From Pseudomonadota bacterium (lineage in GTDB: Bacteria; Pseudomonadota; Gammaproteobacteria; Burkholderiales; Usitatibacteraceae), in the NCBI GenBank assembly GCA_029781595.1, contig JAKOWJ010000021.1, positions 1 to 56,469 of the forward strand: 56,469 bases of DNA, given 5' to 3'. The number at the start of each line of letters is the position of its first letter. Position 1 is the stretch's first letter. The translations under genes and the position numbers were made by a program. The notes under the pieces were generated by a model. That model had not been told where the DNA came from, did not search any database, and was given only the letters and a program-made list of their open reading frames with translations. Positions 9,882 through 20,862 of this stretch are shown piece after piece.

Positions 9882-12545
<2,664 letters not shown>

Positions 12546-12570: not shown

Positions 12571-14058
12571 TCAGGCCTGCGCCGGCTCCTTGAACCACGG
12601 CGCTCGCGCCGTCATGATCAACTGGCTCGCCCGCTCCGACTCCATCCCGGTGAGCTCGGTGAGCTCGTCGGTGTCGAGGTCCGCAAGGGCGTCCATGGTG
12701 GTGATCCCCTTCGAGGCGAGCAGGCGCGCGGTCTGCCCGTCCATCCCCTCCATGCTCTCGAGGCTGCCGGCGGCGCTCTCGACGTTCTCCTCGTGCTGCA
12801 GCTCCTCGGTGAGAAGCGCGTCCCGGGCGCGGCGCCGCAGCTCGTTCACGGTGTCCTCGTCGAAGGCCTCGATCTCGAGCATCTCGTTGATGGGCACGTA
12901 CGCCACCTCGTCCAGCGAGGTGAAGCCCTCGCCGACCAGGATCTCGGCCACCTCCTCGTCCACGTCGAGGCGCTCCATGAAGAGCTCGCGCAGCTTCTCG
13001 GTCTCGGCGCCCGCCTTCTCCTGGCGCTGCTCGACCGTCATGATGTTGAGCTCCCAGCCGGTGAGCTGCGAGGCGAGCTTCACGTTCTGCCCGAGCTTGC
13101 CGATGGCGATCGCCTGCTGGTCCTCCTCGACGACGACGTCCATCGAGTGGCGCTCCTCGTCGACGATGATGGAGCTCACCTCGGCGGGCGCGAGCGCGTT
13201 GATGACGAACTGCGCCGGGTCCGCGGACCACAGGATGATGTCGACCCGCTCGCCGGCCAGCTCCTGGGTCACGGCCTGCACCCGGGAGCCGCGCATGCCC
13301 ACGCAGGTCCCCACCGGGTCGATGCGCGGGTCGTTGGACTTCACGGCGATCTTGGCCCGCAGGCCGGGGTCGCGGGCGGCCGCGCGGATCTCCAGCAGGC
13401 CCTCCTCGATCTCGGGCACCTCCAGCTCGAAGAGCTTCACGAGGAATTCCGGGGCGATGCGCGAAAGGATGAGCTGCGGTCCGCGCGCCTGGCGGTCGAT
13501 CTTGTCGATGTAGGCCCGCACGCGGTCGCCCACGCGCAGGTTCTCCTTGGGGATCAGGTGGTCGCGGGGCAGGAGCGCCTCCACGCGGCCGGACTCGACG
13601 ATGAGGTTGCCGCGCTCGGCGCGCTTGACCGTGCCGGTGACGAGCGACTCGCCCCGCTCGAGGAAGTCGTTGAGGATCTGCTCGCGCTCGGCGTCGCGGA
13701 TCTTCTGCAGGATCACCTGCTTGGCCGCCTGGGCGCCGATCCGGCCGAACGTCTCGGGCTCCAGGGGCTCCTCGAACACGTCGCCGAGCTTCGCCTCCGC
13801 GTTCTCCGCGAGCGCATCCGTGATGGCCACCTGGTGCGCGGGCTCCTCGTGCTCCTCGTCGGGCACGACCGTCCAGCGCCGGAACGCGCGGTACTCGCCG
13901 CTCTCGCGGTCGATCTCCACCCGCACGTCCACCTCGTCCTTGAAGCGCTTCTTCGTCGCCGAGGCGAGCGCCATCTCCAGGGCGAGGAACACCACGTCCC
14001 GGGGCACGTTCTTCTCGCGCGAGAGCGCGTCGACCAGCAAAAGGATTTCCTTCGTCAT
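12571..14058 (-). CDS. nusA: Transcription termination/antitermination factor NusA
   Basis: RNA polymerase-associated factor controlling pausing, termination and antitermination. Order of parts: N-terminal polymerase-binding domain ([18 protein letters not shown]), S1 ([19 protein letters not shown]), two KH domains ([37 protein letters not shown]) and two C-terminal acidic helical repeats. The start at 14058 is preferred: it matches the family N-terminus and has GGAGG about 8 nt upstream. An ATG at 14076 overlaps the rimP stop (TGATG) and would add six residues. Either way the gene is translationally close to rimP. Confidence 0.97.
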
Positions 14059-14075
14059 CTCCACAGCCTCCACCA

Positions 14076-14540
14076 TCAGACGTCCGGCACCAGCCGCGCC
14101 CGCTCGATCTCCGCCAGGGGGACCGTCCAGCGCCGGCCCTCGACGTCGAGCAGCACGGCCCCGCCTTCCACCCCCGCGATCCGCCCTTCCAGGCGCCGCC
14201 GGCCTTCCCGGGGGAGCTTGAGCCGCACCGTCGCGTCCCGGCCCGCGAACCGCCCGAAGTCCTCGAGGCGCTTGAGCGGCCGGTCCAGCCCCGGCGACGA
14301 GACCTCGAGCCGCTCGTAGTCGAACTCCTCGACCGCAAAGGTCCGCGTGAGGTGGTTGCTCACCTTCGCGCAGTCCTCGACCGTGATGCCGCCCGGCTTG
14401 TCGATGAAGACGCGCACCAGCCCGCTGCGCGACCTCTCCAGGTCGACCAACTCGTACCCCAAGGCCGCGAGTGTCCCTTCCAGCCAGCCGTCAGTGCCCG
14501 AATTCGGCTTCACAAACAAAAAATGGGCGCTGCCGCCCAT
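14076..14540 (-). CDS. rimP: Ribosome maturation factor RimP
   Basis: Assists 30S maturation. The core matches the family: [51 protein letters not shown] then [16 protein letters not shown], and a C-terminal SH3-like barrel. ATG 14540 gives 154 residues and is preceded by GGAAAACAG. However, that ATG is also the first base of a terminator-like hairpin, so the in-frame GTG at 14513, just after the T-run (145 residues), is a real alternative. First gene of the rimP-nusA-infB-rbfA-truB operon. The long open frame continuing upstream to 17300 is antisense to a receptor gene and is not coding. Confidence 0.93.
14518..14540 (-). terminator. Terminator-like hairpin overlapping the rimP start (possible attenuator)
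   Basis: On the minus strand ATGGGCG (14540-14534), loop GCAG, CGCCCAT (14529-14523), then five further T (14522-14518). A perfect 7-bp stem, a tetraloop and a T-run of six counting the last stem base form a classical intrinsic terminator. It begins at the A of the proposed rimP ATG and lies 10-40 nt after the predicted transcription start, where it could act as an attenuator of the nusA operon. Confidence 0.65.
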
Positions 14541-14560
14541 CTGTTTTCCGAAACCGCGAA

Positions 14561-14569
14561 AGTATAGCA
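14561..14569 (-). promoter_or_regulatory. Extended -10 promoter for rimP-nusA-infB operon
   Basis: Reading on the minus strand, TGCTATACT is an extended -10 (TGnTATAnT type). The -35 at 17-18 bp spacing is poor (TTCCGG/ATTCCG), as is usual for extended -10 promoters. Transcription start is expected near 14553, only ~13 nt before ATG 14540. Confidence 0.55.
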
Positions 14570-14602
14570 GCAATCGGGGGCGGCCGGAATGCCGACCTTC
14601 CG

Positions 14603-14651
14603 TTCCGGACGGGGACGAGGTGTGGCGCGCACGCCACGGGTCGTCCCGGAA
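14603..14651. repeat. Long imperfect inverted repeat in rimP/receptor divergent gap
   Basis: GGGACGA (14612-14618) pairs with TCGTCCC (14641-14647); inside it GTGGCG (14622-14627) pairs with CGCCAC (14632-14637) around CGCA; outside, TTCC pairs with GGAA across a 5-nt bulge. No T-run follows on either strand. It lies just upstream of the rimP promoter and in the probable 5' region of the receptor gene at 14790. Its role is unknown. Confidence 0.6.
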
Positions 14652-14789
14652 TGTTGCGATCCGGCCACATTCGCAATAAGCTTCGCCGGTTTGCGACAGG
14701 AGGCGCCTCCCCAAGAGGGCGTCGCGGCTCCCAGGCCCCGCCGAAGGCCGGCGCAATCCCACCCACCGATCAGTCCAACCGGAGAATCC

Positions 14790-17483
14790 ATGAAACAAAA
14801 CAGGAAGAAGCAGCTCGTGACCATCGTGGCGCAGGCCCTGGGCACCGGGGTCGCGGCGTCGATGATCGCGACCTCCGCCTTCGCCCAACAGGCACAGAAG
14901 GTCGAGAAGATCGAGGTCACCGGCTCCAACATCAAGCGGGTCGACACCGAGACGGTCGCGCCCGTCGAGATCATCACCCGGGAAGACATCGAGCGCACCG
15001 GCAAGTCCACGATCGCCGAGGTGCTGCGCAGCATTCCCTCGAACACGAGCGGCAGCTTCAACGAAAGCGCGACCAACAGCTTCGCGCCCGGCGCCTCCGG
15101 CCTGTCCCTGCGCGGCCTGGGCCAGAAGACGACCCTCGTCCTGATCAACGGCCGTCGCACGGCCGGATACGGCTTTGCGCAGAACCTGCAGGACAGCTTC
15201 GTCGACATCAATTCCATCCCGAGCGCGGCCGTCGAGCGCGTCGAGATCCTGAAGGACGGCGCCTCGGCCCTCTACGGCTCGGACGCGATCGCGGGCGTGG
15301 TGAACATCATCCTGCGCAAGGACTACAAGGGCGTCGAGGCGAGCATCCGCGGCGGCCGCTCCGAAGGCAAGAACGACTACCGCGCGTCGATCACGGGCGG
15401 CTTCGGCGACCTGGCCAAGGACCGCTACACGGTCTTCGCCACGCTCGACTACTACAAGCGCGACCTGCTCACCCGGGCGGACACGCAGTTCCTTCACACC
15501 AGCGACCTGCGCGGCTACGGCGGCGGACGCAACTTCCAGAGCCTCACCGGCGCGGGCACGTGGCGCCAGTACACGGCCACCGGTGGGGCGACCAACAACT
15601 ACCGCGCGATCTCCGACTGCCCGGGCACGGTCCTCACGGCGGCCCAGGCCGTGGCGCAGGGCCTGCTCGCCTCCACCAGCGGCGCGAACCTGCCGAACAA
15701 CACGTTCTGCTCGATCGACTTCAACGGCCAGTACACGATCCTGCCGAAGACCGAGCGCGTGGGCTTCCTGGGCCGCGCCACCCGCGAGTTCTCCGCGACG
15801 ACCACGGGCTACCTCGAGCTGGGCCTGAGCACGATCTCGACCTACCAGACGTTCCAGAACCCGTTCTTCGCGGGCACGACGGGCCTTCAGCAGACGCAGG
15901 CCGGACTCCGTCCCTTCCCGTACGACATCCTCTTCGCGCCGGGCTCGGCGGGCAACCCGTTCTCGACCAATGCCCGCTACACGGGCGTTCTCAACGGCCT
16001 GGGCACGCGTGACAACGACATCACGTCGGACACGTACCGCCTCCTGGGCGGCCTGACGTACACGCTCGGCTCCTGGGATCTCGACAGCGCCGTCGGCTTC
16101 TCGAAGAACAAGGTCGAGTCCAACAACCTCAACCGGATCTCCCTTTCCGGCACGAGCGCCGCCTTCGGCGTCCCGACCAGCCCGCAGCCGCCGGTGCCGA
16201 CGTCCACGAGCAGCAGCTTCAACCTCGACCGCTGGACGAGCAACTCGGCGGCGGTGTTCGACCAGATGCGCATCAACTTCCCGCGCACGGCCGAGTCCGA
16301 GCTGAGCTTCATCGACACGAAGGGCTCGACGGAAGTCGGCCGCCTGGCCGGTGGGCCCGTGGGCCTGGCCGTCGGGGCCGAGTTCCGCAACGAGAAGCTG
16401 AAGGACCGTCCCGACCCGCGCGCCACCGCCGGCGACATCCTGGGCCAGGGCGTCACCGCGACGGACGGCAAGCGCGACAGCTCGGCGGTCTACGCCGAGC
16501 TCGCTTTGCCCCTCACGCAGCAGATCGAGGCCCAGGTCGCCGGCCGCTTCGACCACTACAGCGACTACGGCAGCTCCACCACGCCCAAGGTCGGCATCAA
16601 GTTCCGCCCGACCAGCACGATCCTGCTGCGCGCCAACTGGGGCAAGGGCTTCCGCGCCCCGACGCTGCCGGAGATCTCGCCGTCGGTGGCGACGTTCTTC
16701 ACGTCGGTCATCGACCCGGTGGACGATTCCGTCGCGCGCATCTCCGGCGTCTTCGCCGGCAACCCGAACCTGAAGCCCGAGAAGAGCACCAGCACGACGG
16801 CGGGCATCGTGTTCGAGCCGACGCGCGACTTCAGCGTGGGCGTGGGCTACTACAAGATCGACTGGAAGGACATCATCGCCTCGCCCAGCTTCCAGTCCAT
16901 CGTCAACGGCGGCGGCCCCGGCGTGATCCGCGACCCGATCACCGGCGCGATCGTCACGGTGGAGAGCAACTACGTCAACCTCGCCTCGACGAAGACCTCG
17001 GGCGTGGACCTCGACATGCGCTACGCCCGCAGCACGGCGATGGGCAAGTTCACCGGCCGGGTCAACGCGTCCTACATCGACTCCTTCAAGGAGGAGGGGG
17101 TGGAGTACGCGGGCACGAACGGCGGGACGAACACCTACCCGCGCGTGAAGGCCACCTACGGCATCGACTGGGACTACCGCGGCCTGTCCCTCACGGCCAA
17201 CATGAACTACATCTCGGGCTACTACCAGCAGTTCCTGCCGGGCTCGTACTTCACGCCGTCGGCCACCCAGAACAGCGTGTACCCGGACCGCGTGGAGCAC
17301 TACCGCACGGTGGACCTGTTCGCCCGCTACCAGGTCAACAAGAACATCACCGTCTCGGCCTCGCTCATCAATGCCGAGAACGTGATGCCCCCGTACGACC
17401 CCGCCTGGAGCACCTTCTTCGACTACAGCCTGTACGACGTCCGCGGCCGCCAGGTGCGCCTGGGCCTGACGTTCAAGATGTAG
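14790..17483 (+). CDS. TonB-dependent outer-membrane receptor (first of two)
   Basis: A protein of 897 residues: a signal peptide ending AFAQQ near residue 32, then [13 protein letters not shown], a plug domain ([59 protein letters not shown]) and a beta-barrel ending in the aromatic-terminal strand (VRLGLTFKM). ATG 14790 has GGAGAATCC upstream. Receptors of this type take up large substrates (siderophores, oligosaccharides, peptides) using TonB-ExbBD energy; the substrate is not readable from sequence. A strong terminator follows, so it is probably monocistronic. A second receptor and the tonB-exbB-exbD operon lie just downstream. Confidence 0.95.
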
Positions 17484-17518
17484 TCGCCGATCCGGGGATC
17501 CCCCGGACCGAGTTCGAA

Positions 17519-17547
17519 AGCCCGCAGCTTGCTGCGGGCTTTTTTTT
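17519..17547 (+). terminator. Intrinsic terminator after first receptor
   Basis: AGCCCGCAGC (17519-17528), TT, GCTGCGGGCT (17531-17540), then seven T. The 10-bp perfect stem ends the transcript 35 bp after the receptor stop. Confidence 0.93.
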
Positions 17548-20832: not shown

Positions 20833-20862
20833 AACGGCGAGCCTCGGCTCGCCGTTTTTTTT
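20833..20862 (+). terminator. Intrinsic terminator after second receptor
   Basis: AACGGCGAGCC (20833-20843), TC, GGCTCGCCGTT (20846-20856) followed by T to 20862. The strong stem lies 20 bp past the receptor stop and isolates it from tonB. Confidence 0.93.

Follow-up and report, generated by a model that had tools for sequence, protein, structure and literature searches.

Why should a hairpin followed by a run of T's stand between the promoter of an operon and the first codon of its first gene? The question is raised by a locus in a 56,469-nt contig from a member of the Usitatibacteraceae (order Burkholderiales), the whole of which is here called the window. 3' of the hairpin lie rimP, nusA, infB, rbfA, truB, and rpsO, all assigned with NCBIfam models, followed by a pnp-like gene with polynucleotide phosphorylase (pnp) domains (Pfam). 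On the other side of the promoter, the divergent neighbour is a TonB-dependent receptor gene. A preliminary description of this DNA proposed that the hairpin attenuates rimP-nusA-infB, that NusA might in this way govern its own synthesis, and that rimP starts either at an ATG within the stem or at a GTG beyond it. The features of the locus are collected in Table 1. They suggest that this element, the rimP-leader, is probably a promoter-proximal intrinsic terminator of rimP-nusA-infB, whose share of read-through is set mainly by NusA.

Table 1. Features of the rimP locus, with positions numbered along the window.
Feature	Position	Strand	Evidence or remark
Extended -10 promoter element TGCTATACT	14569..14561	minus	sequence; TG 14569-14568, TATACT 14566..14561
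rimP-leader stem-loop ATGGGCG-GCAG-CGCCCAT	14540..14523	minus	sequence, fold, conservation, covariation
U-tract TTTTTTGTTT, one interruption	14523..14514	minus	first T doubles as last paired base
GTG, likely rimP start codon	14513..14511	minus	RimP frame in 13/13 loci
rimP	14513..14076	minus	NCBIfam NF000929, 174.6 bits (cut-off 147)
nusA, proposed regulator	14076..12571	minus	TIGR01953, 419 bits (cut-off 253.4)
infB	12545..9882	minus	TIGR00487, 840.2 bits (cut-off 424.4)

Promoter, terminator hairpin, and rimP start codon together occupy 59 bp (14569..14511). The hairpin and T-run just past the extended -10 are real and lie on the minus strand. Read from the extended -10, the RNA is predicted to start near 14554 (14553 in the preliminary description), and the stem begins about 14 nt past that point. 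Its arms, ATGGGCG (14540..14534) and CGCCCAT (14529..14523), enclose the loop GCAG (14533..14530); the tail consists of six T's (14523..14518), a G (14517), and TTT (14516..14514), after which comes the GTG (14513..14511). Short stretches of the RNA fold at -18 kcal/mol (z -3.71) and -14.2 (z -2.97). The hairpin persists in the fold of a 114-nt stretch, which as a whole is less exceptional (z -1.47).

Loose criteria of a hairpin plus T's prove nothing here, since a loose terminator scan finds terminator-like sites at chance level (7 in 15.5 kb, with 7.0 expected). A strict rule, chosen post hoc when the hairpin was already known, demands a perfect 7-bp stem with at least 4 G or C, a loop of 3 to 8, and at least 6 T's in 9 with at least 4 in the first 5. 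It selects three places in the window: the rimP hairpin, and the spots just past two TonB-dependent receptor genes, where a terminator is to be expected. The same rule yields a mean of 0.03 matches in 200 dinucleotide shuffles of the window, and of 2000 shuffles of the 501 nt around the hairpin, 3 contain a match. The strong terminator-like hairpins at 17518-17540 and 20833-20855 on the plus strand each lie just 3' of a TonB-dependent receptor gene.

Conservation is stronger evidence for the hairpin than these chance statistics. RimP was matched in 54 of 61 genomes, that of the window included, and one locus was read per genome; a weak second RimP match in one genome (G016) was excluded. GGGC..GCCC and a T-rich tail are found at all 54 of these order-level rimP loci, with variable loops. 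Thus the stem is kept throughout the relatives; its loss in close relatives is one of the two outcomes that the preliminary description named as refuting. A motif search requiring both GGGC and GCCC passes 53 loci; the sole failure, L026, reads GGGCTGCGGCCC then ACTTTTCATTT. Among the 53, T occupies tail positions 2-6, 9, and 10 without exception, and position 8 is G in 29, A in 16, and T in 8. In the alignment of the 54 loci (A1; 52 distinct rows, with L022 partly misaligned), the fifth stem pair carries compensating changes (GC 14, UA 10, UG 8, AU 4, CG 4, other 12). Paired cells amount to 95.1% versus 89.6% in shuffles, and the covariation score is 0.186 versus 0.095, with 0 of 500 shuffles as high in either case. 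Two of the five structure measures do not stand out from the shuffles (139 and 343 of 500), because GGGC/GCCC hardly varies. The -10-like promoter, the hairpin, and the interrupted U-tract are there to be read in the DNA, as are their order and their conservation.

The same variation bears on whether the palindrome might instead act as DNA, that is, as an operator for a repressor beside the promoter. A perfect dyad just downstream of a promoter, with a divergent gene adjoining, would suit such a role. However, the distance from GGGC to GCCC ranges from 4 to 12 among the 53 order-level loci, G-U replaces Watson-Crick pairs (UG 8 and GU 12 cells), and the T-run is one-sided; each of these counts against an operator and leaves it next to no probability.

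A model built from the 54 loci, the window's own among them (R1), gives a single match at E<=1 in the window's own genome, the rimP hairpin, with 35 of 1785 first-look candidates scored. At the class level, under strict filters and with 35 first-look candidates scored per genome, matches occur in 162 of 185 genomes. Among the best 30 matches, all 29 outside the window's own genome lie directly upstream of rimP on the same strand, and these 29 loci invariably have T at tail positions 3-6, 9, and 10. At L069 and L079, a CCCC..GGGG hairpin with a T-run directly precedes the GGGC..GCCC hairpin. Such tandem hairpins resemble the tandem gammaproteobacterial form of the rimP-leader, as that form is presented in the relevant part of PMC2965389.

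Of seven weaker matches to the model that were inspected, five (L091-L094, L097) directly follow the end of pnp; the other two, L095 and L096, do not. All five are ordinary terminators with a stem like that of the rimP-leader, and since two of them (L091 and L092) have a like tail too, the tail was rejected as an element confined to rimP. At least six A's stand in front of four of the five, whereas the window's hairpin lacks them. Some genomes of the class have look-alikes at the two ends of this gene cluster, in the terminator past pnp and the leader before rimP; the rimP-leader may be a weaker relative of a full terminator.

The start of rimP was compared in 13 loci, 8 of this genus and 5 of a sister genus (g4). 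In every one of the 13, the GTG that follows the U-tract shares the reading frame of RimP. The same holds for the ATG within the stem in 10 loci but not in three of the sister genus (L009, L010, L013), where that ATG is out of frame and the stem-loop measures 16 or 17 nt versus 18. The ATG at 14540, one of the two starts first considered, was therefore rejected, and 14513, 9 nt past the stem, is the likely start of translation. A conserved Shine-Dalgarno sequence was not seen ahead of ATG 14540, nor was a Shine-Dalgarno sequence seen ahead of GTG 14513. In the RimP profile NF000929, residue 11 aligns at profile position 7, the start of the match. Near this start lies codon 4 (14504-14502, minus strand), which is ATT in 10 of the 13 loci and AAT in the window. 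ATT is the start codon of infC; with AAT in the window, an infC-like start at codon 4 was rejected, and codon 4 is possibly the place of an older rimP start codon. RNA release is placed 7-9 nt past the stem in the pertinent section of PMC8060035. For this locus, release would be predicted at about 14516..14512, on or beside GTG 14513.

Attenuation of this operon in conjunction with NusA is the best reading of the locus, as the preliminary description had it, with termination predicted from the sequence. It is not a new one, having been in print since 2010, when Naville & Gautheret described the rimP-leader and proposed NusA as its regulator (PMC2965389, in the part devoted to this element). 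The window shares what that account lists: a position upstream of rimP-nusA-infB, a GGGc..gCCC stem, and a U-stretch after the stem. The distance there given from terminator to gene, 4-130 nt, accommodates the 9 nt to GTG 14513 and excludes ATG 14540 (PMC2965389). In that part of the paper, as in the window, no antiterminator is visible and NusA is the proposed factor. What sets the window apart from the general rimP-leader is its promoter about 14 nt before the stem and its GTG 9 nt after (PMC2965389); this compressed layout is a local variant of the published element.

Mechanism tests on rimP or nusA leaders were found in the open-licence literature only for Bacillus subtilis and Escherichia coli. 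In B. subtilis, termination likewise precedes the same operon, and the model proposed has no antiterminator (PMC12288461, a review, in its section on nusA). According to that section, NusA stimulates termination in the leader of its own gene and so autoregulates nusA, a precedent that makes the autoregulatory loop suggested for the window a sound idea. There, control of termination has been proven experimentally (PMC12288461), whereas the window's element is known from its sequence. The B. subtilis leader is cited as 180 nt (PMC2965389, in passing), in contrast to the roughly 14 nt before the stem in the window. In E. coli, two terminators, t1 and t2, precede rimP; an effect of NusA is reported, and transcripts of the operon rise when NusA-dependent termination is lowered (PMC6511841, in the results bearing on this operon). 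The sequence upstream of E. coli rimP contains GGGCTTTAGGCCC + T7, a second hairpin of the same kind as the window's; a tandem CCCG..CGGG hairpin stands in front of it, whereas the window has a single hairpin. Another E. coli example, GraL, is reportedly a set of short transcripts from the greA leader, made by early termination before the gene for a polymerase factor. GraL and the window's putative product would both be early-terminated short RNAs before such a gene, and the gene differs. The rimP leader itself is named among attenuator-derived, ProQ-associated sRNAs (PMC5391140, in the pertinent passage). One observation counts against the attenuation model, which leaves it unexplained: a fusion of the E. 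coli rimP 5'UTR plus ORF fell in a Rho mutant (PMC7815308, in the data on this fusion).

Two Rfam families were compared with the window. The covariance model RF01770 rimP (cut-off 47 bits) has no match in the window, with none at E<=10 in 14300..14800, and none in the window's own genome; the E. coli control was matched. Membership in RF01770 was rejected, the sole sub-cut-off match in 41 genomes (G042) lying away from the rimP of that genome. RF02420 Bp1_162 (cut-off 50 bits) reaches 19.0 and 18.6 bits on the two strands of the window. That family derives from a Burkholderia sRNA candidate that RT-PCR detected and that was reported as specific to Burkholderia (PMC3521395, in the entry on this candidate). 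Among 300 genomes of the order, 6 have an RF02420 match at E<=0.001, and 3 of these exceed the cut-off. All three of these (L099-L101), plus a weaker one (L102), fall on the opposite strand of a rimP leader, at about 1501-1600; the remaining two (L055 and L103) lie elsewhere than at rimP. Because its above-cut-off matches are the other strand of rimP leaders, RF02420 was rejected as a relative in its own right. In the open-licence literature the names of the family occur only in PMC3521395, the available text of which does not mention rimP. Read in the rimP direction, RF02420 would describe some 100 nt of leader, ending in the rimP terminator, much like an attenuated transcript. The family may be a terminated rimP leader assigned to the wrong strand, or else an antisense RNA. 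The overlap suggests that one listed "sRNA" needs a check of its strand and identity.

How, then, would read-through be controlled? With about 14 nt ahead of the stem, the leader is too short for a leader peptide, an aptamer, or an antiterminator stem, so a factor bound to the polymerase would be the natural regulator. RNA polymerase is predicted to terminate at the rimP hairpin, with the terminating share set mainly by NusA. Part of the rimP-nusA-infB transcripts would end at a length of about 39-43 nt, at the rimP start codon or right next to it. More NusA would bring more termination and less nusA, and the RNA that reads through would be translated from GTG 14513.

Factors other than NusA could set the balance at a real terminator: cold-shock proteins or initiation at the GTG might open the hairpin, or the hairpin might simply damp the operon constitutively. 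We regard this as unlikely. Antitermination by CspA, CspC, and CspE is reported for the E. coli metY-rpsO operon (PMC11648934, in the passage on it), but the data given for this operon in PMC6511841 are not consistent with cold-shock antitermination, and autoregulation by NusA is directly supported in B. subtilis in the review section cited above (PMC12288461). With the GTG 9 nt beyond the stem, an initiating ribosome would reach the stem; yet it could bind only once the U-tract is made, which is late for opening the hairpin. A further candidate is NusG, acting through a TTNTTT pause motif in the tail. The tail, TTTTTTRTTT, fits the motif, and the NusG-dependent terminators of B. subtilis have distal interruptions of the U-tract and weak A-U pairs at the stem base (PMC8060035, in its description of these sites). 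However, NusG of the five genus mates in which it was found (of 8 genomes) reads WHLVKSTP, with H and S as in E. coli and T as in B. subtilis, and so has one of the three pro-pausing residues, the B. subtilis residues being taken from the literature. The window's own assembly (G000), listed as 88% complete, yielded no nusG. Control by NusG is quite improbable, and control by NusA remains the preferred reading.

Close spacing of promoter and stem is common near the window and not general. An extended -10 of the form TGNTANNNT ends 19-22 nt before the stem in all 13 loci of this genus and g4. At the order level, the best -10 stands out against shuffles (p<=0.05) in 29 of 54 loci, 28 of them within 35 nt; at the class level, this holds for 5 of 29 loci, 4 of them within 35 nt. 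In four loci (L027, L046, L047, L049) a mere 6-7 nt separate the end of the -10 from the stem, which predicts an RNA whose first bases are already those of the hairpin. RNAs of this kind would be expected if the hairpin were a non-terminating structure, either a 5' stabiliser or a device of translation control. Neither of these needs a T-run, though, and the T-run is conserved as strongly as the stem, which makes a non-terminating role very improbable and favours termination.

A terminator so near its promoter may be met while sigma is still bound and NusA perhaps not yet present, and control by NusA could be weakened as a result. The same circumstance allows a bold reading of the window. With promoter, terminator, and start codon within 59 bp, the terminator would act near +40, where sigma leaves and NusA binds. 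The compressed leader might then gauge how fast NusA replaces sigma on newly formed elongation complexes, as a factor-only device with no RNA sensor, in which release of the RNA competes with the start of translation for one and the same stretch of bases; we put this forward as a speculation that is doubtful on present evidence. The 59-bp version offers a very simple construct for asking whether NusA alone sets read-through.
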